Origin: Kofleriaceae bacterium
GTDB lineage: Bacteria; Myxococcota_A; Polyangia; Haliangiales; Haliangiaceae
Assembly (NCBI GenBank): GCA_022842285.1
Contig: JALHPV010000005.1
Coordinates: 1 to 64,000 of the forward strand
DNA: 64,000 nt
Reading direction: 5' to 3'
Numbering within the stretch: the stretch's first letter is position 1; every line of letters starts with the position of its first letter. The notes below the pieces were generated by a model. The model was given only the letters and a program-made list of their open reading frames with translations, ran no database searches and was not told the origin of the DNA. The translations under genes were made by a program, and so were the position numbers. Below are positions 3 to 31,109 of this stretch, in pieces.

Positions 3-2582
<2,580 letters not shown>

Positions 2583-2584
2583 CC

Positions 2585-3337
2585 ATGCGTGCCTCGGCGG
2601 CCCTGGTCGTCGCCGTGGCCGCTTGCGGCCGCATCGGCTTCGACGGCAACCCCGTCGACGATGCGGTGCCGACCGACGTCGCCGTCTCTGACGCCACCCC
2701 CTCCGACGCCGCGCTCGCCGATGCCCTCGACGCTCCGCCCGCTGACGAGTCCCTCGCCCTCTACATGCCGTTCGAGGGGGATAAGACGTTCCTCTCCGCA
2801 AGCGAGTACCCCACCGTCTGCAGCGGGGCCTGCCCCACGCCGGTGGGTGGTCGCATCGGGCAGCAAGCCGCATCCTTCAACAGCAACGAGTGCGTGCTCA
2901 TCGGCGCCAACAACCTGCGCCCCACTCAGTTCACCTTCGCGGTGTGGGTTCGCGCTCCCATCGCGCAAACCGCCACCATCTTCGCGCGGCCGTTCCGAGG
3001 CGACATCGCGTCGACGAACACGCTCGAGCTCTACGTCGAGAACGGCACCGACTGGCGTGTCCTGGTGAGCGACCAGGCGACCGGCACGAGCGCCCCGCTC
3101 GCTGAATGGCATCATGTCGCTGCTACCTACGATGGCAACCTCCTGACGATGTACCTGGACGGCGCTCCCGAGACGACGCGCATGGTCGGAGGCATCTCGT
3201 ACTCCGTCGAAGATCTCCGAGTCGGCTGTGATCTGAACACGGGCGTCGAAGATGACTTCTTCAACGGTCTGGTCGACGATCTCCGCGTCTACACGCGCGT
3301 CCTGACCAACGACGAGATCGCCGCGCTCGCGAACTAG
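2585..3337 (+). CDS. LamG-like (concanavalin fold) lipoprotein
   Basis: 250 residues. The N-terminus ([19 protein letters not shown]) is a short lipoprotein signal with lipobox VAAC. An Asp/Pro/Ala-rich linker follows to about residue 58. The rest reads as one LamG/concanavalin jelly-roll: a 'LALYMPFEG' first strand, '[10 protein letters not shown]', '[10 protein letters not shown]', 'MYLDGA' and terminal '[23 protein letters not shown]' style strand-helix. These domains usually bind glycans or mediate surface contacts. It starts 2 bp after the TPR gene, so it is likely in the same transcript, and converges with another LamG-type lipoprotein gene on the opposite strand. Confidence 0.88.
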
Positions 3338-9599: not shown

Positions 9600-11306
9600 A
9601 TGGAGCCGGCCGAAGCGGACGGCGATGACAAGCTCATCGGCGAGGTCCTGGCCAGTCGCTACCAGATCGAGACGCGCCTCGGCGAAGGCGCGATGGGCGC
9701 GGTGTACAAGGCTCGCCACGTCAAGGTAGGCCGGCCGTTCGCCGTCAAGATCCTCCACCGGAAGCTCCTCGTGGACGCGAAGGTCGCGCTGCGCTTCGAG
9801 CGCGAGGCCGAGCTCGCCGGTCGCCTGCGGCATCCGAATGTCATCGGCGTCGTCGACGTCGGCGAGACTCCGAACGGCACCCGCTACATGGTCATGGACT
9901 TCGCCGAGGGCGATGACCTCGCGACGCTCCTGGCCGACGCCCCCATGCCGGCCGAGCGCGTGATCCAGCTCTCGCGCCAGATCCTCGATGGGCTCTATCA
10001 CGCGCACGAGAACGGACTCATCCACCGCGACCTCAAGCCCGAGAACATCATCGTCGAGCGTGACGACCACGGCAACGAGGTCCCGCGCCTGGTCGACTTC
10101 GGCATCGCGATCCTCCGAGACGGCGGTGACAACACAGGCGCCGATGGTCGGTTGACCACCAACGGTCTCGTCCTCGGTACGCCGCACTACATGGCGCCCG
10201 AGCAGGCCGTGGCGGATCCGATCGATCACCGCATCGACCTGTTTGCCCTCGGTATCGTCGTGTACGAGATGCTGTGCGGCAAGCTGCCGTTCGACGGTAG
10301 CGGTGCCGAGGTCGCGCGCGCGAACCTCCTCCTGGACCCGCCCCCGATCGCGCAGCGCGTTCCATACCTCGAGGTCGACCCCTTGCTCGAGGCGTTCGCG
10401 CGCCTCCTGATGGCGAAGAAGCGCGAGCAACGTCCCGAGACGGCGAAGGCCGCGCGCGATCTCCTCGACCTGATCGCGAGCGACCGCCCCGCCGCAAGCC
10501 AACGCCTCGGCGTCCCCGCCACGAAGGTACGCATCAACACGCCCACTGCCCCGCGGCAGCCGCTGCACGTGCCGCCCGTCGTCGAGGACACGCCCTCGAA
10601 CGAGCTCGCCGTGCTGCAGGCCTCGACCACCGTCCCACCCGCGCCCCCGACGATCGAGCGCGTGGCGCAGCACGGCATCCCCACGGACGTGACGAAGCCG
10701 CTCCGGTCTGTAGATGAGGCGCCGCCGCAGCAGAACCGGCGCGGGCTCATCATCGCGATCGCGGGCGCAGTCGCAGCGGTGGCCATCGTGCTCGCACTCA
10801 CGATGGGCGGCAACAAGGTCCCCGCCCCGATCGCGACCACGGAGCCGCCCGTCGTGATGACGCCCACGCCGCCCCCGCCCCCGGCTCCCGATCCGCCCCC
10901 CATCGCACAGCCCGCGCTCGTGGAGACCGGCAGTGGCTCGGGCGAGGAGCGCGTCACTCTGCCCGATCCGGTCGACGTCGCGACGACGCCCGGCAAGAAG
11001 CCCGTGACGGGCAAGAAGCCGAGGGCGAGCTCCGGTGCGATCACCGCGCAGCCCGCCGGGCCCCCGCCCCAGGAGACGCCCGAAGCCAGCCCGCCGACGA
11101 AGGCGAGCATCACCGCCCGCTACAGCCGCGTCGGCACGCAGTTGAGCCAGCTCGAGGAGACTGAGGGTGTCGCGGCGATGTCGGCACTACGCGTGAAGTT
11201 CCGCCGCATCGATCTGCAGACGTGGAAGAAGTCCCCGGAGCTCTTGCGGGAAGCCGACCGCATCCTCGACGAGCTCGAGGCTGCGATCACCAAACGCGCG
11301 AAGTAG
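9600..11306 (+). CDS. Hanks-type serine/threonine protein kinase with C-terminal membrane anchor
   Basis: 568 residues. The kinase domain spans about residues 20-285: Gly loop 'LGEGAMGAVYKA', invariant Lys in 'FAVKIL', catalytic loop 'HRDLKPEN', 'DFG' and 'APE' in 'PHYMAPEQ', all intact. A Pro-rich juxtamembrane region precedes one membrane span near 380-400 ('GLIIAIAGAVAAVAIVLAL'), then a Pro/Thr linker and a short charged helical tail outside. The layout (cytoplasmic kinase, outside C-terminus) is typical of receptor-like kinases; PASTA domains are absent. ATG abuts the stop of the upstream secreted protein gene, indicating translational coupling. Confidence 0.95.
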   Translation: MEPAEADGDDKLIGEVLASRYQIETRLGEGAMGAVYKARHVKVGRPFAVKILHRKLLVDAKVALRFEREAELAGRLRHPNVIGVVDVGETPNGTRYMVMDFAEGDDLATLLADAPMPAERVIQLSRQILDGLYHAHENGLIHRDLKPENIIVERDDHGNEVPRLVDFGIAILRDGGDNTGADGRLTTNGLVLGTPHYMAPEQAVADPIDHRIDLFALGIVVYEMLCGKLPFDGSGAEVARANLLLDPPPIAQRVPYLEVDPLLEAFARLLMAKKREQRPETAKAARDLLDLIASDRPAASQRLGVPATKVRINTPTAPRQPLHVPPVVEDTPSNELAVLQASTTVPPAPPTIERVAQHGIPTDVTKPLRSVDEAPPQQNRRGLIIAIAGAVAAVAIVLALTMGGNKVPAPIATTEPPVVMTPTPPPPPAPDPPPIAQPALVETGSGSGEERVTLPDPVDVATTPGKKPVTGKKPRASSGAITAQPAGPPPQETPEASPPTKASITARYSRVGTQLSQLEETEGVAAMSALRVKFRRIDLQTWKKSPELLREADRILDELEAAITKRAK

Positions 11307-22859: not shown

Positions 22860-23264
22860 ATGTTCGAGACCAGTCGCTACACCCTGACCCGCCGCGTGAC
22901 CGGCACGTTCGCCGACGCGGTGGCCGCCACGCGGTCCGCTCTCGCCGCGGAGGGCTTCGGCGTGCTCACCGAGATCGATATCCAGGCTACGCTGGCCAAG
23001 AAGTTGGGTGTCACGATGCGGCCGTACCTGATCCTTGGCGCTTGCAACCCCGGACTCGCGCATCGAGCGCTCCAGCTCGATCCAGCTGTCGGGGCCCTCT
23101 TGCCGTGCAACGTCGTCGTCGCGGAGGGAGAAGACGGGGCCATCGAAGTCGCCGCCATCGATCCGAAGGCCATGTTCGCCGTGGTCGATCGCTCCGACAT
23201 CGGCCCCGTCGTCGACGAGGTACGTGACCGGCTGAACCGCGCGCTCGCAGCGGTGGCGTCGTGA
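22860..23264 (+). CDS. DUF302 family protein
   Basis: 134 residues. Matches DUF302: 'FADAVAATRSALAAEGFGVLTEIDIQATLAKKLG' at 20-55, 'YLILGACNPGLAHRALQLDPAVGALLPCNVVV' at 58-90, and 'AIDPKAMFAVV' thereafter. DUF302 proteins are small, of unproven function, and often sit beside sulfide-oxidation or thiosulfate genes; they may bind metal or sulfur species. ATG 22860 lies at +3 of a strong sigma-54 promoter, so the start is well placed. The stop overlaps the next GTG (GTGA), so DUF302 and the small DUF6132-like protein are translationally coupled. Confidence 0.9.
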   Translation: MFETSRYTLTRRVTGTFADAVAATRSALAAEGFGVLTEIDIQATLAKKLGVTMRPYLILGACNPGLAHRALQLDPAVGALLPCNVVVAEGEDGAIEVAAIDPKAMFAVVDRSDIGPVVDEVRDRLNRALAAVAS

Positions 23265-23458
23265 GCGACACGCCAGTCCCTCGCCTGCGCCCACGCCGGC
23301 TGCTGCCGATCGTGGGTACGTTCGTCGGCGCCGCCGCCGGCTACGCGTATTACGTCTTCCTGGGCTGTGACAGTGGTTGAGCGATGCAATCGAACCCCGT
23401 GCTGACCATCGCGATGGGAGCAGCGCTGGGGCTCGTGGCGACCGTGAGTCGCCGATGA
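23261..23458 (+). CDS. DUF6132-like small membrane protein with in-frame TGA: candidate selenoprotein
   Basis: GTG 23261 opens a frame read as 39 residues to TGA 23378-23380, then 25 more to TGA 23456-23458. The first part has a basic start and 'VGTFVGAAAGYAYYVFLGCD' (one membrane span and a Cys). After 'GCDSG' comes TGA, and the same frame goes on 'AMQSNPVLTIAMGAALGLVA'. From memory, DUF6132 proteins read GC..G.C...SNP...G...G over about 65 residues, so TGA occupies the second Cys. The likely reading is Sec (U40), total 65 residues. GCGAT (23381-23385) and ATCGC (23408-23412) could make the base of a hairpin directly after the TGA. Alternatives: truncated 39-residue protein or sequencing error. 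Sec machinery is not in the window. Confidence 0.6.
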
Positions 23459-23486: not shown

Positions 23487-24086
23487 ATGAATCCTTCGTT
23501 CTGGGACGAACGTTACGGCACGGCTGACTATGCCTACGGCCGCGAGCCGAATGACTTCGTGCACGCGGAGGCGGAGCGCATCCCACCAGGGCCGGTCCTG
23601 TGCCTCGCGGAGGGCGAAGGCCGCAACGCGGTGTTCCTCGCCGTCCGTGGGCATGCGGTCACGGCCGTCGACTTCTCGCGGGAGGGTCTCCGCAAGGCCG
23701 AGGCGCTCGCCCGTGAACACGGCGTGACCATCGAGACCATCCACGCCGACCTCGCCCTGTTCGAGCCAACCGCGGGCGCGTACAGCGGGGTGATCGCGAT
23801 CTGGGCGCACCTACCGCGCGAGATCCGGCAGCGGGTCCACGGCTGGGTGGCGCGCTCGCTGCGCCCTGGCGGCGTGTTCCTCCTCGAGGCCTACACGCCC
23901 GACCAGATCGCGTTGGCGACCGGCGGCCCCAAGGATCCCTCGATGCTGATGACGCTCGAGGGTCTGCGCGAGGAGCTCGGCGGGCTCCACATCGAGATCG
24001 GCCGCGAGGTGCGGCGCGAGATCCACGAGGGACCCTTTCACGAGGGACCCAGCGCGACCGTGCAGCTCGCGGCGCGGCGGCTCTGA
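23487..24086 (+). CDS. Class I SAM-dependent methyltransferase (TehB/thiopurine-type)
   Basis: 199 residues; Shine-Dalgarno AAGAGG before ATG 23487. 'FWDERYGTADYAYGREPNDFV' is the typical start of the TehB/TPMT-like group. Motif I region 'GPVLCLAEGEGRNAVFLAVRG' near 35, 'AVDFSREGLRKAEALAREHG' near 60, 'YSGVIAIWAHLP' near 98. Members methylate tellurite, selenite, thiols or sulfide to volatile or less reactive forms; in this operon (DUF302, DUF6132-like) methylation of a sulfur or selenium species is a fair guess. The gap to the preceding gene is 28 bp, hence one operon. Confidence 0.88.
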   Translation: MNPSFWDERYGTADYAYGREPNDFVHAEAERIPPGPVLCLAEGEGRNAVFLAVRGHAVTAVDFSREGLRKAEALAREHGVTIETIHADLALFEPTAGAYSGVIAIWAHLPREIRQRVHGWVARSLRPGGVFLLEAYTPDQIALATGGPKDPSMLMTLEGLREELGGLHIEIGREVRREIHEGPFHEGPSATVQLAARRL

Positions 24087-24094
24087 GCTGCGGG

Positions 24095-24547
24095 TCAGGC
24101 GGTCACGAGGGCCACGTCGACGTCGATGCCGCGACGCACGCTCGCGGTCACCGTACAGAAGTCTTCGAACACCTCACGGCATCCGTCGACTGCCTCCGCA
24201 GGGACGCCCGGCGGGACGTGGAGCGTGACCTTCACGGGCCCGATGCGGAGCCGGCGCTCGGGAGTGCGCACGATCTGCATGTCGACGGTAGCCTCGATGC
24301 CGTGCTCGACCTTCACGCCCTTCTTGCCGAGGCAGAACACGAGGCTCGCCGCCAGGCAATTGCCGATGGCGCCCGCGAGGAGTCGCGCGGGATTGGGGCC
24401 GGCGTCCTTCCCGAGGGGCGGTGGCTCGTCGGCGACGATCGGCGCGTACGCCTTGTCGAAGCGGATCTGGAACCGATAAGCCTCCTCTTGCGCAATGCGG
24501 AGGGAGAGCTCGCTGACCTTGATGTCCTCTGTCACGTCACCCTTCAC
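24095..24547 (-). CDS. OsmC-family thiol peroxidase/redox protein
   Basis: 150 residues. OsmC landmarks: 'DEPPPLGKDAGPNPARLLAGAIGNCLAASLVFCLGK' with the first active Cys near residue 64, and a second Cys in 'REVFEDFCTVTASV' near 131. OsmC proteins form intertwined dimers that reduce organic or sulfur-based peroxides with the Cys pair. GTG 24547 is 31 bp after the DUF2892 stop, so this is the last gene of the ETHE1-to-OsmC operon. It is convergent with the methyltransferase gene. Confidence 0.9.
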   Translation of the reverse strand: MKGDVTEDIKVSELSLRIAQEEAYRFQIRFDKAYAPIVADEPPPLGKDAGPNPARLLAGAIGNCLAASLVFCLGKKGVKVEHGIEATVDMQIVRTPERRLRIGPVKVTLHVPPGVPAEAVDGCREVFEDFCTVTASVRRGIDVDVALVTA

Positions 24548-24578
24548 TAGCAGGATCGACGCCGTGATTCACGCTGCG

Positions 24579-24776
24579 TCAACGTCGCGCCGGGATCCGG
24601 CAGGTCGAGATGCCGAGGAGGCGATACAGTGGACAGAAGCCAACAGCGGCTGTCCCGAGTGGGATGAGGCCGAGCCAGCCGAGCGGCGTCTTGGGCCCCA
24701 CGAAGACGAGTGAGAGAAGCACCACGCCCAGAACGAAGCGAATTGCGCGGTCGGTAGTGTTTTCATTCGGAGTCAT
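24579..24776 (-). CDS. DUF2892 small membrane protein (YgaP transmembrane-like)
   Basis: 65 residues. 'TTDRAIRFVLGVVLLSLVFVG' and 'WLGLIPLGTAAVGFCPLYRLLGISTC' are the two membrane helices of DUF2892, with the conserved 'GFCPLY' and a second Cys ('STC') near the end. In E. coli YgaP this module anchors a rhodanese domain; here rhodanese is encoded separately three genes upstream. ATG overlaps the stop of uspA-like gene (ATGA). Confidence 0.9.
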   Translation of the reverse strand: MTPNENTTDRAIRFVLGVVLLSLVFVGPKTPLGWLGLIPLGTAAVGFCPLYRLLGISTCRIPARR

Positions 24777-25489
24777 GACGGAGTCCTTTCGGTGGAGCGC
24801 ACAGGGACGACGAGCACGGGCCGTCCGGCGTGGCGGAGGACGCGTTCGGTGCGAGAGCCGCGCATCACGTCGCCGACCCCATCGTGGCCGTGGGTCGTCA
24901 TCACGATGAGAGACGCCTCGATGCGCGCTGCCGCGTGGACGATGGCATCGGGGTCGGACGTCGGCAGGTGTACGACCTCGATGAAGGGCTCGACAGTCCC
25001 GGCGATGCCCGTGAGCACGCGCGCCGCGGCCACGCCCCGCTCGCCATCTTCGGGGGTCCCCGCGGGCACGATGATGCGCGGCAACTCGATCGCGCCGGTC
25101 TCGGGGTCGACGAATCCGCGCAAACCGTTCGGGACCATCAAGGTGGGCATGCAAACGTTGCGTGCGATCGCCTCGCCGACGCTCTCGTGAAACAGCGCCG
25201 AGATCCCGCGCCGCGCATGTGTGCCGAGCACGAGGACCGCGGGCGAGAGGCGGACGACCGCGTCGATGACCGTGTCTGCGGCTCCGTCGCAACACTGCAC
25301 GCAGCGAAACACCCGCTGGATCGGCTTCTGCCAGCGTCCGATCAGCGCAGCCGTCGGAGGGCGCTCGTCGGTCGGCGGCCCCGCATAGAGCGACACGAGC
25401 TGCCCCTGAGAAGCCATCGCCAACGCCGCGGCGTGGACGTGAGCCGCTTCGTCGTCGCCGGTCAGGTCTGTCGCATGCGCGATGATCAC
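24773..25489 (-). CDS. Universal stress protein (tandem USP-like)
   Basis: 238 residues with GTG start and a near-ideal AGGAGG seven nt upstream. First half: 'MIIAHATDLTGDDEAAHVHAAALAMASQGQLVSLYAG', 'VLVLGTHARRGISALFHESVGEAIARNVCMPTLMVP'. Second half: 'RIIVPAGTPEDGERGVAAA', 'SLIVMTTHGHDGVGDVMRGSRTERVLRHAGRPVLVVPV' with the ATP-binding G-x2-G-x9-G type pattern. A 'RCVQCCDG' Cys cluster near residue 65 is unusual for this family. UspA proteins are common in persulfide operons. Confidence 0.88.
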   Translation of the reverse strand: MIIAHATDLTGDDEAAHVHAAALAMASQGQLVSLYAGPPTDERPPTAALIGRWQKPIQRVFRCVQCCDGAADTVIDAVVRLSPAVLVLGTHARRGISALFHESVGEAIARNVCMPTLMVPNGLRGFVDPETGAIELPRIIVPAGTPEDGERGVAAARVLTGIAGTVEPFIEVVHLPTSDPDAIVHAAARIEASLIVMTTHGHDGVGDVMRGSRTERVLRHAGRPVLVVPVRSTERTPS

Positions 25490-25520
25490 GAGATCCCTCC
25501 TTACAAGCTCGGTGCCAGCT

Positions 25521-26420
25521 TCACGCCTTCGGCTTCGCGACGGGCTGCCCGAGCTCGTCGGCGGGGCGCAGCACGTTCAGCGGCACGACGAGGTAGCGAT
25601 GGCCGTTCGCGTGCGGGGCCGGCATCCGCCCCGCGTCGACATTGATCTGGACGCTCGGGAAGAGCAGGCGCGGCGCCGCGAGCGTCGCATCCCGAGCCGT
25701 GCGCATCGCGACGAAGCCCTCGCGTGTCGTCCGGGCATCGAGCTGGGGATTGCGGGCCTTGGAGGCGCGGATCGTCGTCTCCCACTTCACATCGCGACCG
25801 TTCGGCTGGTAGTCGTGACCGACGAAGACGCGCGTCGCATCGGGCAGCGCGTAGAGCTTCTGGATCGACTCGTACATCGCCTCCGCAGAGCCCCGCGGGA
25901 AGTCGCAGCGCCCGGTGCCGTAGTCGTCCATGAACAGGACGTCGCCGGTGAAGAGCGCGTCGTCGATCTGATACGTGACGCACGCCGGCGTATGGCCGGG
26001 CGTCGCGATCACGCGGATCGAGAGCGAGCCGGCGGTGATGACCTCGCCGTCGGCGACGAGGCGATCGAACTGGCTCCCGTCGGTGGCGAAGGCGGGCGGC
26101 AGATCGAAGATCTGCTTGAACGTCTCCTGGACGACGCGGATGCGCTCGCCGATCACGACCTTGGCGTCGAAGTGCCGACGCAGGATCTGCGATCCAGAGA
26201 GGTGGTCGGCGTGGGCATGGGTCTCCAGGATGAAGCGCAGCTTGAGCTGCTCGCGCCGCAGGTACTCCGCGACCTTGTCGACCGAGGTCGTCGACGTGAG
26301 CCCGGCGGCGGGGTCGTAGTCGAGGACGGGATCGATGACGACGGCATCCTTGGTGCTGGGATCCCAGACCACGTAGGTCAGGGTGAAGGTCGCCGGATCG
26401 AAGAACGGTTCGATTCTCAT
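25521..26420 (-). CDS. Metallo-beta-lactamase-fold sulfur dioxygenase-like protein (Blh type)
   Basis: 299 residues. '[24 protein letters not shown]' start; metal ligands in '[11 protein letters not shown]' (near 68), '[12 protein letters not shown]' (near 140), '[22 protein letters not shown]' and 'VFVGHDYQP'. The C-terminal extension '[37 protein letters not shown]' and 'LNVLRPA' is the Blh/BigR-associated persulfide hydrolase-dioxygenase form, longer than ETHE1 (229 aa here). It probably oxidises glutathione persulfide or related sulfane sulfur in the cytoplasm. The rhodanese gene lies 10 bp upstream and the USP gene 31 bp downstream in the operon. Confidence 0.9.
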
Positions 26421-26430
26421 GACATCCTCC

Positions 26431-26799
26431 TCAGGTGCGAGTGACGGGATAGCCGGCGGCGACGTAGGCCAACATGCCGCCGGCGAGATTCATGACGCGC
26501 TGGAAGCCAGCGGCGACGAGGGCCTCGGCGGCCTTGCCCGAGCGATTGCCCGAACGACACACGAGAACGATCTCGGTGCTCTTCGACCACGAGCGGGCCT
26601 GCTCGCCCACGGAGGCCAGGGGAACGGCCTCGATGCCCTCGATGTGACCGAGCTCGCCGACGAGCTCGTGCGGCTCTCGCACGTCGACCATGCGCACGTG
26701 GCCCAGCGCGGCGTGAAGTTGAGCGGCCGAGATATCGCGGTACCCGACAGGAGCCGGTGTGGCGGCCTGGAACAGGGCGGACGGAGTGGTGGGTTCCAT
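26431..26799 (-). CDS. Rhodanese-domain protein
   Basis: 122 residues from ATG 26799, with AAGGAGG 6 nt upstream; the longer upstream frame overlaps the ETHE1 gene and is not protein-like. Single rhodanese domain: '[41 protein letters not shown]' then the active-site loop '[17 protein letters not shown]' with the catalytic Cys near residue 79, and '[22 protein letters not shown]'. It transfers sulfane sulfur between persulfide carriers such as glutathione and the two neighbouring MBL enzymes. Confidence 0.93.
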
Positions 26800-26810
26800 G
26801 GGTGCCTCCT

Positions 26811-27500
26811 TCAGTGCGCCTGCGAGGTTCCGCAGGCGCGGTTGGCGGGGACGGCGGTGGCGAGCTTCTTCGGCGGCGGGAGATCGAGCGTCGACATCAG
26901 CGCGATGAACGCCTCGCGATCGCGATTGGCCAGCCGCGGGTTGAGGCGCTTCTCCTCGCCGATCGTCGAGCACGTGTGCCCGCGGTAGTCGTGGCCGGGA
27001 TACACGATCGTGGAATCGGCGAGCGTGAACAGCCGCCCGGTCACCGAGTCGTAGAGCTGACCGGCGTCGCCGTTCTGAAAGTCAGCGCGACCGCAGCCAC
27101 GCACGAGCAACGTGTCGCCGGTGAACACGGCGCCGGGGACGAGATACGAGAGACCGTCGTCCGTGTGGCCCGGGGTCGCGATCGCGGTGATGGCGATGTC
27201 GCCGACCTGCACGACGTCGCCATCGGCGAGCCCGACGTCGATGCACGGAGCTCCGAGGGGGCTGCCGTACGTGGTCGCGCCCGTGCGTTCCCGCAGCTTG
27301 CCGGCGGCGGTCACGTGGTCCGCGTGGACGTGCGTCTCGAGCACGGCCACGAGCCGCAGGCCGAGCTGCTCGAGGAGCGCCGCGTCGCGCTCGACCTGTT
27401 CGAGGACGGGGTCGACGAGCGCCGCGACACCTTTCGCCATGTCGGCGATCAGGTACGTGTACGTCGAGCTCTCGAGGTCGAATAGCTGCCGAACCATCAT
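26811..27500 (-). CDS. ETHE1-like persulfide dioxygenase
   Basis: 229 residues. Iron ligands: 'ETHVHADHVTAA' (near 56), 'ATPGHTDDGLSY' and 'VFTGDTLLVRGCGRADFQNGDAGQLYDSV', then 'IVYPGHDYRG', with ETHE1 signature 'STIGEEKRLNPRL' near 184. ETHE1 oxidises glutathione persulfide to sulfite and glutathione with O2. ATG 27500 (or the next ATG 27497) lies at +3 of a sigma-54 promoter (27512-27528). It heads the operon ETHE1, rhodanese, Blh-like, USP, DUF2892, OsmC; the next gene follows by 11 bp. Confidence 0.95.
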   Translation of the reverse strand: MMVRQLFDLESSTYTYLIADMAKGVAALVDPVLEQVERDAALLEQLGLRLVAVLETHVHADHVTAAGKLRERTGATTYGSPLGAPCIDVGLADGDVVQVGDIAITAIATPGHTDDGLSYLVPGAVFTGDTLLVRGCGRADFQNGDAGQLYDSVTGRLFTLADSTIVYPGHDYRGHTCSTIGEEKRLNPRLANRDREAFIALMSTLDLPPPKKLATAVPANRACGTSQAH

Positions 27501-27511
27501 GCCCCCTACCT

Positions 27512-27528
27512 TTGCAGCCGAGATGCCA
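27512..27528 (-). promoter_or_regulatory. Sigma-54 promoter of the ETHE1 operon
   Basis: Minus-strand TGGCAT-ctcggc-TGCAA; GG 27527-27526 and GC 27515-27514 are separated by exactly 10 nt. Predicted start 27502, so ATG 27500 is +3. Confidence 0.7.
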
Positions 27529-27578
27529 GGGTCACGGTCGGCGAATTCGCGAGGAACTGCGGGGGGTAGCGAGCCGAC

Positions 27579-27595
27579 CTGAAACGCCCTGAAAC
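27579..27595. promoter_or_regulatory. Upstream activator motif for the ETHE1 operon, tandem CTGAAAC at 10 bp
   Basis: CTGAAACGCCCTGAAAC lies 52-68 bp upstream of the ETHE1 promoter. It continues into CTGAA-ACG-TTCAG, a local dyad overlapping the SQR stop. Confidence 0.6.
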
Positions 27596-27597
27596 GT

Positions 27598-28788
27598 TCA
27601 GGCCCGCCCGCGCAGCATGCCGTTCCAGTACAGCTCCGGCAGCACGTACGCCTTCAGCGCCCACATGCTGTAGCGCTCCTGACTCTGGTCGAACGGGAAC
27701 GACTCGACGGGCGTCCCGTTGTAGTCGAACTCGGCGAGCACGAGCTTGCCGTATCCCGTCACGAGCGGACACGAGGCGTAGCCGTCGTAGCGAGCGGTGG
27801 CCGGCTGCCCGGCCCGATGCGCGAGCAGGTTCTCCACGAGCACCGGCGCCTGCTTGCGGATCGCGGCCCCGGTGCGCGACGTGGGAAGGCTCGAGCAATC
27901 TCCGAGCGACCAGACATCGGGGAACCGGGGGTGCTGGAGCGTGAACTTGTCGACCTCGACCCAGCCGCTGGCGTCGGCGAGCGCGCTCGAGCGGATCACG
28001 CCTGGGGCGCGCTGCGGCGGGACGACGTGAATCATCCCGTAGCGCAGGATCTTCTCGGAGCCGTCATCGAGGTTGCGGAACACCGCCTCGCGCGATTTCG
28101 GACGGACCGCGATGAGGTCGTGCCGGAACAGCGTCTCGATCTCCTTCTTCGCGAGGATCCCGCGCAGCGTCTTCGCGTAGTGCTCGACCCCGAAGATCGC
28201 CTTGCCCGCCGACGCGAAGGTCACCGGCACCCGCTTGCGCACGCCGCGTTTCCGCAGGTGCTCGTCGGCCAGGTACATGATCTTTTGCGGAGCGCCGGCG
28301 CACTTCACCGGAGTCGACGGGAACGTGAAGATCGCGTTGCCCTCCTCGATCGTCTGGAGGTTCTGCCACGTGCTGTCGACGGTCTCGTAGAGGTAGTTCG
28401 AGCAGATGCCGTCCTTCCCCAGGGCCCCGGGCAGGCCCTCGATGGCAGCCCAGTTGAGCTCGATGCCGAGAGCGACGACGAGCTGCTCGTACTCGATGCG
28501 CTGACCACCCGACGTCACCACCGCCTTGTGATCGGGTTCGAACGCGGCGACCGCTTCCCGGATCCACGTGACGCCAGCGGGGATGTAGTCGGCCTCCGCG
28601 CGCTCTGTGATCTCCTTGCGGAACACGCCGCCACCGACGAGCGTCCACAGAGGCTGGTAGTAGTGCTTGTCCGACGGCTCGATGAGCGCGACCGAACCGG
28701 CGGGCAGCTGAGTTGCGAGTCGAGCCGCGATGGAGATGCCGCCGGTGCCTCCACCAGCGATGACGACGGCGAAGCGGTGCGGGGTCAT
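27598..28788 (-). CDS. sqr: Sulfide:quinone oxidoreductase
   Basis: 396 residues. N-terminal FAD motif 'VVIAGGGTGGISIAARLA' near 10, second FAD/NAD-like segment in the middle, 'KCAGAPQKIMYLADEHLRK' near 158 with the conserved Cys that sits on the sulfide site, 'VWSLGDCSSLPTSRTGAAIRKQAP' near 290 (flavin-binding GD with the second Cys), and the membrane-association C-terminus. It looks like the type II (SQRDL-like) group: sulfide is oxidised to persulfide with quinone as acceptor at the inner membrane. Its ATG overlaps the DUF1641 stop by 4 bp (ATGA), so it is cotranscribed with DUF1641 and the TauE-family gene. Confidence 0.95.
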   Translation of the reverse strand: MTPHRFAVVIAGGGTGGISIAARLATQLPAGSVALIEPSDKHYYQPLWTLVGGGVFRKEITERAEADYIPAGVTWIREAVAAFEPDHKAVVTSGGQRIEYEQLVVALGIELNWAAIEGLPGALGKDGICSNYLYETVDSTWQNLQTIEEGNAIFTFPSTPVKCAGAPQKIMYLADEHLRKRGVRKRVPVTFASAGKAIFGVEHYAKTLRGILAKKEIETLFRHDLIAVRPKSREAVFRNLDDGSEKILRYGMIHVVPPQRAPGVIRSSALADASGWVEVDKFTLQHPRFPDVWSLGDCSSLPTSRTGAAIRKQAPVLVENLLAHRAGQPATARYDGYASCPLVTGYGKLVLAEFDYNGTPVESFPFDQSQERYSMWALKAYVLPELYWNGMLRGRA

Positions 28789-29327
28789 CGTGGTGCCTCC
28801 AGCGCGAGGGGTTGGTGTGATTCGAGTCGTTGTTCGCAGGCGGCGACATCGCCGGCCGCCAGGTTCTTGCCGAAGGCGCGGGCCACCGCGAGGATGAAGC
28901 CGAGCGCGCGCTGAACGTCATCATCGCGCAGGGCACGGAGCGCCCCCCACATCCCGACGGGCGGAGCCGCTCCCGGCTGGGCCAGCGCCGAAGCCAGCTG
29001 GCTCACGACGGCGAGCGAGGTCGGTTCGAGGAGCTTGGATTCGATGAGGGTGGCCAGGCCATTCACGGCCCGTGGCGTCGTGGCCACCTCGACGGCGCGG
29101 AGGGCGGCACCGACGCGACCATCCAGGTCGATGCCTGACTCCGTCGCCCGCATCGCGAGCCGATCGACGGTATCGGTCATCGCCGCAATACCGCCGGGCA
29201 GTGCTGTCACGACGTCAGTGAGGGGAGCCAGAGCGGTGGTGACGCGCTCCACGGATGCGAGGCGCTGCTCGATGCGTTCGAGCGCGGCCAGGATGGGATC
29301 GGGGTTTGATCGAGTGGACGCAACCAT
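28785..29327 (-). CDS. DUF1641 protein, SQR partner
   Basis: 180 residues; AAGGAGG 6 nt before ATG 29327. Mostly helical: 'ALERIEQRLASVERVTTALAPL', 'TLIESKLLEPTSLAVVSQLASAL', and 'PPVGMWGALRALRDDDVQRALGFILAVARAFGKNL' is the DUF1641 signature. Families of this type are encoded next to SQR or formate dehydrogenase and are thought to aid complex assembly or electron transfer. The ATGA overlap with sqr supports a joint role. The C-terminal tail contains one Cys. Confidence 0.88.
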   Translation of the reverse strand: MVASTRSNPDPILAALERIEQRLASVERVTTALAPLTDVVTALPGGIAAMTDTVDRLAMRATESGIDLDGRVGAALRAVEVATTPRAVNGLATLIESKLLEPTSLAVVSQLASALAQPGAAPPVGMWGALRALRDDDVQRALGFILAVARAFGKNLAAGDVAACEQRLESHQPLALEAPR

Positions 29328-29342
29328 GCAGCCTCCTTGGCC

Positions 29343-30092
29343 CTAGAACACGCCCAGCTGGGCAAGCACGATGATGGTGGCCATGACGAGGACGAACACC
29401 CCGAAGCCTCGTCGCAGCGCCTGAGGCGAGATCCGCGACGAGAACAGGCCACCCACGACGGTGCCGATGATCGCGACGCCCGTGATCCCGAGCGTCCGCG
29501 GCCAGTCGAGATCGACGTGTGACAGGTGGCCGATGAGTCCGCCCGTCGACTGGATCGAGATCACGGCGAGCGAGGTGCCGATGGCCATCGGCATCGGGAG
29601 CCGACCGAAGAGGACGAGCGCAGGGACGATCAGGAAGCCGCCGCCCGCGCCGACGAGCCCGGCGACCGTACCGACCGCCAGGCCGAGCACGAGCACCATC
29701 GGGACGGCGAGGTCGCCGGTCTGCACCTGCGCCGTCGCGCGCCGTCCGCGCAGCATGGCGATCGCGGTCGCGACCATCATGCCCGCGAAGGCCCAGAGGA
29801 GCGCGTCCGACGGTATGTAGCCGGCGATGCGACCACCGACGAACGCGCCCGTCATGGAGGCGAGTCCGAAGATGGCGCCGGTCTTCCACTGGATGCGGCC
29901 CGCCCGCGCATGCTGCAGGGCCCCGAACGCGCTCGTCACCGCGACGACGAACAGCGACGCGGCGATCGCCTGCTTCGTCTCCATGCCGGCCACGTACTTC
30001 AGGATCGGCACCGCGAGGATCGAGCCGCCGCCGCCGAGTAACCCCAGCGAGACGCCGATCAGGAGGGCGAGCCCTAGTGCGACCGCGAACAT
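29343..30092 (-). CDS. TauE/SafE-family (TSUP) membrane permease
   Basis: 249 residues from ATG 30092 (a GTG at 30101 is also in frame but would lie upstream of the predicted sigma-54 start). About eight hydrophobic segments, the typical duplicated four-helix pattern: 'LGLLGGGGSILAVPILKYVAGM' in the first half and 'VAGLVGAGGGFLIVPALVLFG' in the second, both with the GGGG/GAGGG signature. TSUP proteins export sulfite, sulfoacetate or related anions. Placed first in the operon with DUF1641 and SQR, it probably exports a product of sulfide oxidation. Confidence 0.92.
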   Translation of the reverse strand: MFAVALGLALLIGVSLGLLGGGGSILAVPILKYVAGMETKQAIAASLFVVAVTSAFGALQHARAGRIQWKTGAIFGLASMTGAFVGGRIAGYIPSDALLWAFAGMMVATAIAMLRGRRATAQVQTGDLAVPMVLVLGLAVGTVAGLVGAGGGFLIVPALVLFGRLPMPMAIGTSLAVISIQSTGGLIGHLSHVDLDWPRTLGITGVAIIGTVVGGLFSSRISPQALRRGFGVFVLVMATIIVLAQLGVF

Positions 30093-30105
30093 GCGAACCA
30101 CCTTC

Positions 30106-30120
30106 GCAAGCGCGATGCCA
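30106..30120 (-). promoter_or_regulatory. Sigma-54 promoter of the TauE-DUF1641-SQR operon
   Basis: Minus-strand TGGCATC-gcgc-TTGC, the closest to consensus in the window; GG 30119-30118, GC 30107-30106. Predicted start 30094 with ATG 30092 at +3. Confidence 0.75.
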
Positions 30121-30156
30121 CCTGCGCGGAAGGCCCGGTCGTGGAATTTCAGCGCC

Positions 30157-30200
30157 GGTGAAACGCCGCGAAACGCATCGGACCGGCCCGGCGTTTCACC
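30157..30200. promoter_or_regulatory. Double activator site between two divergent sigma-54 promoters
   Basis: GGTGAAACGCCG (30157-30168) and CGGCGTTTCACC (30189-30200) are a perfect 12-bp inverted repeat; the left copy is followed 10 bp later by CGAAAC (30169-30174). It lies 38-81 bp from the TauE -24 and 48-91 bp from the YeeE -24, so one site cluster could serve both promoters. The 181-bp intergenic space holds nothing else. Confidence 0.65.
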
Positions 30201-30246
30201 CAGCCCCTCCGTGCTCGCTGCGGTGCCATGCGAGCGCGGTCGACGT

Positions 30247-30262
30247 TGGCGCGACGACTGCT
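30247..30262 (+). promoter_or_regulatory. Sigma-54 promoter of the YeeE/YedE pair
   Basis: TGGCGCG-acga-CTGCT; GG 30248-30249 and GC 30260-30261 are 10 nt apart. Predicted start about 30273, i.e. one base before the GTG at 30274. Confidence 0.6.
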
Positions 30263-30273
30263 AAGCAACCCGC

Positions 30274-30684
30274 GTGATGCATAGCTGGCTCCTCGCTGCC
30301 GTCGGCGGCGTTCTCATCGGCGGATCGGCTGCCCTCCTGATGCTCACGCAGGGCCGGATCGCCGGCATCAGCGGGATTCTCGGCGGGATGCTGCCGCCGA
30401 TGGCGGTGGATCGCGACTGGCGCGCCGCGTTCCTCTTCGGCCTCCTCGGCGCCGGCATCGTGGCCGCCGTGGTCGCGCCGCAGGCGGTCGGGGCGTCGGT
30501 GCGCGGCACCCCCATGCTCGTCGTGGCCGGTCTCCTCGTCGGCATCGGCACGCGGCTGGGGAGCGGCTGCACGAGCGGACACGGCGTGTGCGGCCTCGCC
30601 CGCATGTCGCCGCGCTCGCTCGTGTCCGTCGTGACCTTCATGGCTACGGGCGCGCTGACCGCGATCATCGCCGGAGGCTTCTGA
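30274..30684 (+). CDS. YeeE/YedE-family sulfur-species transporter, N-terminal half protein
   Basis: 136 residues (start GTG 30274 or ATG 30277). About four membrane helices with signature '[17 protein letters not shown]' near 25 and '[32 protein letters not shown]' near 85-115; the paired Cys in '[11 protein letters not shown]' are the thiosulfate/sulfur path residues of YeeE (family knowledge). TGATG overlap with the next gene shows tight coupling. The full-length YeeE fold is here split over two genes. Confidence 0.92.
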
Positions 30685-31109
30685 TGCGCGAGCTCATGGC
30701 AGGCGTCGCCGGCTTCATCTTCGGGATCGGCCTCCTCGTCTCGGGAATGACACAACCGAGCAAGGTCATCGCGTTCCTCGACGTGACTCGCGGCTGGGAT
30801 CCGAGCCTCCTGTTCGTCATGGCGAGTGCGATGGGCGTGAATGCCCTCGTCTACTGGAAGCTCGTCCGCCGGCGGGCGGCCCCGATGTACGAGCCCACGT
30901 TTCACCTGCCCACGCGTCGGGACATCGACCTGCGGCTGGTGCTCGGCGCGGCGCTGTTCGGCATTGGCTGGGGCCTCGGCGGTCTCTGCCCCGGACCCGC
31001 GCTGGTCTCCGCATCGAGCGGCAGCCTGGGAGCCATCATCTTCGTCGCCGCGATGCTCGTGGGGATGCTGCTCCAGCACCGCCTCGCGCGCACTACAGCG
31101 CGACCGTGA
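30684..31109 (+). CDS. YeeE/YedE-family partner subunit (DUF6691-like)
   Basis: 141 residues. '[53 protein letters not shown]' and 'DIDLRLVLGAALFGIGWGLGGLCPGPALVSASSG' are the repeated YeeE signature, with one Cys in 'GGLCPGP'. About four helices. Together with the upstream protein it forms a two-subunit YeeE/YedE channel for thiosulfate, sulfide or polysulfide. ATG 30684 overlaps the TGA of its partner. Its last 17 bp overlap the convergent porin gene. Confidence 0.92.
   Translation: MRELMAGVAGFIFGIGLLVSGMTQPSKVIAFLDVTRGWDPSLLFVMASAMGVNALVYWKLVRRRAAPMYEPTFHLPTRRDIDLRLVLGAALFGIGWGLGGLCPGPALVSASSGSLGAIIFVAAMLVGMLLQHRLARTTARP

Follow-up and report, generated by a model that had tools for sequence, protein, structure and literature searches.

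The window, a stretch of 64,000 nucleotides of DNA from a Kofleriaceae bacterium, a soil-type myxobacterium (contig JALHPV010000005.1, positions 1 to 64,000), contains a short frame with a single internal TGA codon, located between a DUF302 gene and an island of sulfide/persulfide genes. The features of this region are as follows.

22860..23264, + strand: DUF302 gene (Pfam PF03625, E 1.4e-26), from ATG 22860 to TGA 23264
23261..23458, + strand: putative selenocysteine (Sec)-containing DUF6132-related gene, 65 aa, with Sec as residue 40 (C36-D-S-G-U40), a GTG start and a TGA terminal stop at 23456-23458
23300..23365, + strand: predicted transmembrane helix 1, residues 14-35 (AlphaFold2 model, mean pLDDT 80.2)
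23366..23368, + strand: partner cysteine Cys36 (TGT), invariant in all homologues
23378..23380, + strand: UGA codon, very probably read as selenocysteine (TGA in 20 genes from 18 genomes, TGC in paralogue L041, Cys in DUF6132 relatives)
23391..23435, + strand: bSECIS-like hairpin, with the apical loop CGCG at about 23410-23413, 29 nt after the UGA
23396..23446, + strand: predicted transmembrane helix 2, residues 46-62 (AlphaFold2 model)
23487..24086, + strand: SAM-dependent methyltransferase (TehB/TPMT-like; PF13649 E 1.2e-12, PF03848 E 8.3e-6), of uncertain membership in the unit
24095..31109, strand not assigned: sulfide/persulfide island (OsmC, YgaP-like TM protein, Usp, two metallo-beta-lactamases, rhodanese, SQR-like flavoprotein, DUF1641, TauE-like protein, YeeE/Sulf_transp)

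The two metallo-beta-lactamases of the island are presumably of the ETHE1/persulfide-dioxygenase type, and the TauE-like and SQR names are likewise assumed from our reading of the translations. No thioredoxin or DsbD/CcdA gene was found adjacent to the window gene. The GTG start codon of this gene overlaps the stop codon of the DUF302 gene (GTGA), which makes translational coupling of the two probable.

The frame 23261-23458 can be described as MSDTPVPRLRPRR-TM1-GCDSG-TGA-AMQSNP-TM2-SRR-stop. The part upstream of the internal TGA, from GTG 23261, is MSDTPVPRLRPRRLLPIVGTFVGAAAGYAYYVFLGCDSG, and the 25 codons following it are AMQSNPVLTIAMGAALGLVATVSRR. The original prediction, made from the letters of the window, had placed the start, the internal TGA, the 25 further codons and the terminal stop at exactly these positions, with no frameshift, and its proposal of coupling to DUF302 agrees with the overlap. 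AlphaFold2 modeled the readthrough product as a two-helix hairpin (mean pLDDT 80.2, pTM 0.56), with Cys36 and Sec40 predicted to lie in the short connecting loop. The termini are rich in arginine, with four positive charges before helix 1, two after helix 2 and none in the loop. By the positive-inside rule, this charge distribution suggests a topology with both termini in the cytoplasm and the C-x3-U loop facing the periplasm. A fold search of the PDB with the AlphaFold2 model yielded no meaningful match to a solved structure.

We searched 35 genomes of the order with translation continued through stop codons. TGA was present at exactly the window's internal codon in 20 genes from 18 genomes, and this codon was never TAA or TAG. 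Each of the 20 genes carries exactly one internal TGA, at the shared codon, and their protein identity to the window gene is about 34-77%, so they are not near copies of it, and the retention of this codon far exceeds chance expectation. Across these 20 genes, the flanking motif is GC[D/S/T/H][S/T]G-U-xxx-[S/A/E/G]-[N/S]-P, with a glycine-rich helix on either side. In an alignment of 23 TGA-form genes, the internal codon was TGA in all cases (23/23), and the terminal stops were TGA in 15, TAG in six and TAA in two. For the six closest genes, variability was highest at third codon positions, with values of 0.35 and 0.36 on the two sides of the TGA versus 0.11-0.18 at first and second positions, matching the expectation for sequence translated on both sides of the codon. 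Genome G008 contains both a Sec form (locus L081) and a Cys paralogue (locus L080), with thioredoxin genes near both; its second copy (L041) has TGC at the TGA codon (GCSSGCWYQSSP).

Nearly all the other homologues in the class and phylum carry Cys, typically in the context GCxSGxCPITSNP. Three more TGA forms were identified in other families of the phylum: GCHSS-U-GITANP (G089, locus L074), GCHST-U-GITSNP (G477, L172) and GCHGA-U-GLTGNP (G346, L175). This second Sec type, GCH(S/G)x-U-G(I/L)TxNP, indicates that Sec may have entered the DUF6132-related family more than once. In a tree of 37 short sequences, the 20 Sec genes grouped together with the G008 Cys paralogue (96/90), and the other Sec forms lay outside this main group, with weak support; more than one origin of Sec in DUF6132-related proteins is possible on this phylogeny. 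A sequence in G396 (L174, about 2563-2712, minus strand), GCRVGAS-TGA-FYLASP, has a longer spacing between the Cys and the TGA, and is a possible fourth extra Sec form.

A pattern scan of 84,980 named species, which was restricted to sequences with a GCDSG-like motif and would therefore overlook other variants, yielded 75 stretches, only about 15 loci of which, in myxobacterial records, were real homologues; these were found only in Kofleriaceae, Myxococcales and ‘Deltaproteobacteria’ metagenome-assembled genomes. The remaining stretches, largely from Sphingomonadales, were rejected as unrelated frames with no membrane helix around the motif. The GCDSG-TGA DNA pattern occurs in a similar context in many Sphingomonadales (for example, L095, L099, L104, L110 and L119), where it is probably another frame of a conserved gene. 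TGA matches in G322 and G331 were also rejected as Sec codons, as they correspond to the ends of Cys genes. A single-query scan of wider genome contigs gave no confirmed match.

The region downstream of the UGA was then considered as RNA. Folded alone, the window sequence is unexceptional (z about -1), and the evidence for a hairpin is therefore comparative. The 20 genes were aligned without gaps, and pairing was assessed between columns 13-33 and 39-59. Helix pairing was observed in 64.5% of cells, versus 34-46% when the register was slid by one to three columns, and the covariation score was 0.249, versus 0.07-0.16 for the slid registers, with none of 500 shuffles scoring as high. Pairs 15-57 (CG in nine genes, GC in eight) and 21-51 (GC in 11, CG in four) display swaps at third codon positions on both sides of the helix. 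To control for protein constraint, only synonymous codons were shuffled within columns: pairing was 0.645, versus 0.589 +/- 0.011 in the synonymous shuffles (0/1000 as high), and there were 343 double changes, versus 188 +/- 24 (maximum 269 in 500 shuffles). Mean minimum free energy was -26.8 kcal/mol, versus -19.5 +/- 0.84 kcal/mol with synonymous resampling (0/200), and averaged -15.0 for the Cys homologues. The register was picked from the data, which biases the slide control in its favor; the results of the synonymous shuffles and the folding energies rest on more than this choice. RNAalifold recovered only five pairs from the ungapped alignment; the helices slip between genes, and pairs were therefore counted in a fixed register. 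The apical loop begins 28-33 nt after the UGA in 19 of the 20 genes, and the minimum-energy fold of L023 lacks the shared hairpin. In bacterial SECIS elements, the loop lies about 16-37 nt after the UGA, with a G within its first two nucleotides. A G is present at these positions, in the minimum-energy fold, in the window (CGCG) and about half of the other genes. The hairpin anticipated downstream of the TGA thus exists as a comparative signal across the 20 genes, with covariation at synonymous sites; it matches the expectation for a bacterial SECIS except for the loop-G rule, and can be said to fit the textbook element loosely.

The assembly of the window's genome (7.9 Mb in 550 contigs, 96.7% complete, with 4% estimated contamination) contains all four components of the Sec machinery, selA, selB, selC and selD, as a selenoprotein at this locus had implied. 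The matches to selA (532.6 bits), selB (301.4 bits) and selD (317.5 bits) all exceeded the curated cut-offs; selB is a long gene, with a C-terminal region extending beyond the matched part. Two copies of tRNA-Sec (selC) were found, each scoring 74.8 bits, above the curated cut-off. These two equal-scoring genes (anticodon tca) lie 7 kb apart on contig C163 (L076), at 3030-3125 and 10027-10122, reflecting a duplication or an assembly effect. A second selB-like match (C223) was rejected, as it is EF-Tu rather than SelB. Sec formate dehydrogenase was searched for in the window's own genome and not found. Within the order, selA was present in 17 of the 18 genomes with the TGA form, the exception being G003, which is 73% complete. 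Three genomes without selA (G016, G021 and G026; at least 96% complete) also have no TGA gene, although G026 has a tRNA-Sec. This co-occurrence is consistent with Sec decoding, but weakly discriminating, selA being common to most genomes of the order. Outside the order, selA was also present in G089, G477, G346 and G396.

Profile-profile comparison (hhalign) of the Sec-only and Cys-only alignments gave a probability of 99.4% (E 4.7e-21). The alignment spans 55 columns, brings the two cysteine columns of the profiles into register and has a gap of one residue between these columns. The Cys relatives match PF19628 (DUF6132) with 26.8-37.1 bits (cut-off 23.2), whereas the readthrough product has no PF19628 match at E values up to 1, and Pfam and NCBIfam scans assigned it to no family. 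The window protein thus misses the Pfam model while the profiles align, and the gene is best placed, from these comparisons, in a putative Sec-containing sister lineage of DUF6132, rather than as a Pfam-certified member. It shares with DUF6132 the two-helix layout, the invariant GC, the S-G, the second Cys column, the [SA]NP motif and the glycine-rich second helix, but differs in having Sec in place of the second Cys, a C-x3-U rather than a C-x4-C spacing, and an N-terminal RLRPRR extension. The term “DUF6132-like”, as used in the original prediction, is accurate as to homology and too generous as to the Pfam model. The family features given there (two cysteines, an SNP motif and spacing to within one residue) are borne out by the Cys homologues, which have one more residue between the cysteines, and so is the placement of the TGA at the second Cys, since homologues extend past this position and have Cys there, as TGC in L041 and as the aligned column in DUF6132.

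A 2026 review of prokaryotic selenoproteins lists 119 families and subfamilies (PMC13188914), including a Sec YeeE transporter (GUxSG), a Sec type III SQR, MerT (mercuric transport), heavy-metal ATPases and several rhodaneses. This inventory has no DUF6132/PF19628 entry and does not mention Myxococcota. A search by term of a 2022 review (PMC9312934) and the deep-Sep paper (PMC12013277) gave no match for a DUF6132-type family or a Myxococcota lineage. The open-access literature, taken without supplementary tables, contains nothing linking a selenoprotein with DUF6132; an unpublished GenBank annotation is possible. The literature match for “DUF6132” alone was discarded, because it concerns EamA/DUF6 transporters. 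The window gene resembles the CxxU/UxxC selenoproteins (Table 1 of PMC13188914) in having Sec where homologues have Cys, an adjacent partner Cys, a downstream hairpin and the Sel machinery, but its product is a 65-aa membrane hairpin, not a thioredoxin fold. Like the Sec form of YeeE/YedE (PF04143, GUxSG), it appears to be a membrane protein involved in sulfur handling that contains a G-[CU]-x-S-G motif, and YeeE genes lie near several copies. Nevertheless, the two differ in size and family, there is no PF04143 match, and Sec replaces the first Cys of GCxSG in YeeE, as opposed to the later, second Cys here. These comparisons point to a new Sec-containing family built on the known Cys family DUF6132.

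The neighbors of the relatives provide information about possible function. A thioredoxin gene was present nearby in 21 of the 49 Cys-relative loci and a DsbD/CcdA-type gene in 14 of the 49, versus none of 64 background loci (497 kb). The control is a rough one, because the background was drawn from other taxa and a few loci were included twice at different lengths. Several Cys-relative loci (L070/L191, L177, L188, L196, L197, L198, L207, L210 and others) have the order trx, DUF6132, dsbD on one strand. We know of no description of this recurrent module. Only three of the 22 Sec loci have a thioredoxin or DsbD neighbor; the Sec genes of G007 and G008 have thioredoxin genes nearby, and the G007 locus also has a YgaP-like TM gene. 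In G005, a DUF302 gene (73% identical to that of the window), the Sec gene, a metallo-beta-lactamase/rhodanese fusion and two Sulf_transp genes lie in a row, and the G006 Sec locus contains a metallo-beta-lactamase/rhodanese fusion and a YeeE-type gene. In G032, the Sec gene lies directly downstream of genes for a CBS-domain PLP synthase and a Cys/Met-metabolism PLP enzyme. Both the Sec and the Cys forms repeatedly have DUF302, persulfide dioxygenase/rhodanese, YeeE or transsulfuration genes in their surroundings, and many Sec loci have no obvious sulfur neighbor. DUF302 genes lie near or adjoin DUF6132-type genes in the window and in five other genomes, G005 and four with Cys relatives (loci L090, L201, L203, L213 and L216), which suggests a functional link between these two uncharacterized families.

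These neighborhoods also bear on the alternative that survives best, in which the protein is a selenoprotein that uses its C-x3-U loop to bind soft metals (Hg, Cu, Cd), or that serves the YeeE sulfur/selenium transporter as an accessory, rather than acting as a redox relay. A gene that we take to encode a heavy-metal P-type ATPase lies near the G024 copy, and the copies in G005, G006 and the window have YeeE genes in their vicinity; moreover, Sec forms of MerT, heavy-metal ATPases and YeeE are recorded (PMC13188914). The Cys relatives, however, are most often found beside thioredoxin and DsbD/CcdA, metal genes are rare, and Pfam gives the protein no MerT or YeeE (PF04143 Sulf_transp) match. 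We consider this alternative unlikely but not negligible.

The other alternatives concern the UGA itself. If the internal TGA were a true stop, the product would be a 39-residue single-helix protein ending in ...GCDSG, with the downstream conservation a relic or another feature. TGA is indeed a normal stop in this genome, and also ends this gene; the truncated frame would give a plausible single-TM peptide, and there is no ORF of at least 50 aa in this frame here. Such termination is nonetheless very improbable, given the in-frame conservation of 25 codons after the TGA in 20 genes, the continuation of the Cys homologues through this position, the exclusive use of TGA as the internal codon and the conservation of the RNA hairpin at synonymous sites. 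A pseudogene, or a sequencing or assembly error in a Cys-encoding gene, might be envisaged in so fragmented an assembly with some contamination, but a slip from TGT or TGC is untenable when about 20 separately assembled genes have TGA there, with structure at synonymous sites. Finally, sequence alone does not prove which residue is inserted, but decoding of the UGA as another amino acid (Trp, for example) by a non-Sec mechanism is extremely improbable, given that homologues have Cys, and in no case Trp, at the equivalent position, that the full Sec machinery is present, that a hairpin with synonymous covariation follows, and that UGA is the terminal stop in most of these genes.

Selenocysteine at UGA 23378-23380 is, in our view, almost certain, given what can be read from sequence: the signature of recoding, the equivalence of Cys and Sec, the signal of structure in the RNA and the presence of the machinery. 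The selenoprotein reading as a whole, with the following mechanism as its most likely extension, is highly probable. SelB would read the UGA as selenocysteine, aided by the hairpin in the coding sequence just downstream, and the product would be a 65-residue two-helix membrane hairpin with a short loop carrying the redox pair C36-D-S-G-U40. Its most likely role is that of a thiol/selenol relay at the membrane surface. Such a relay would alternate between a selenenylsulfide and a state that is reduced or persulfidated, passing electrons or sulfane sulfur to and from partners of the thioredoxin type (Trx and, in relatives, DsbD/CcdA), and could act in the handling of sulfide, persulfide and thiosulfate, as suggested by DUF302, persulfide dioxygenase-rhodanese and YeeE genes in some loci. 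The chances of a membrane redox relay are about even; this role is transferred mostly from the Cys relatives, because the window has no Trx or DsbD neighbor and few Sec loci do. With DsbD/CcdA and its thioredoxin, the protein has in common a cysteine pair at the membrane, and in several genomes a Cys DUF6132 gene is flanked by trx and a dsbD/ccdA-like gene; unlike it, the protein is small (the DsbD_TM Pfam model has 219 positions), has no sequence match to it, and, in the window, has no such neighborhood. The original prediction had proposed a selenium-dependent step in sulfide or persulfide handling. The recurrence of sulfur genes around the gene supports this proposal only in part: thioredoxin and DsbD/CcdA are the partners seen most often with the Cys relatives, and a thiol relay of general function at the membrane is no less likely than an enzyme dedicated to persulfide. 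A persulfide/sulfide role in the window's organism is accordingly a possibility that we rate slightly below even.

The gene would add to the 2026 inventory of 119 families (PMC13188914) a selenoprotein family absent from it, in a Myxococcota lineage. Genes of this type, 65 residues long and split by a UGA, are easily overlooked by annotation. The Sec and Cys paralogues of G008 constitute a natural pair for asking what selenium adds at a membrane redox site. More speculatively, DUF6132-type proteins may be minimal membrane thiol carriers (C-x3/4-[C/U]) acting between thioredoxin and DsbD/CcdA or sulfur-transfer partners, which would have become selenium-dependent in Kofleriaceae-like myxobacteria and, separately, in other Myxococcota, where they would move electrons or sulfane sulfur in sulfide/persulfide metabolism. 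The linkage to thioredoxin, DsbD/CcdA and persulfide enzymes provides a first testable hypothesis for the uncharacterized family DUF6132.
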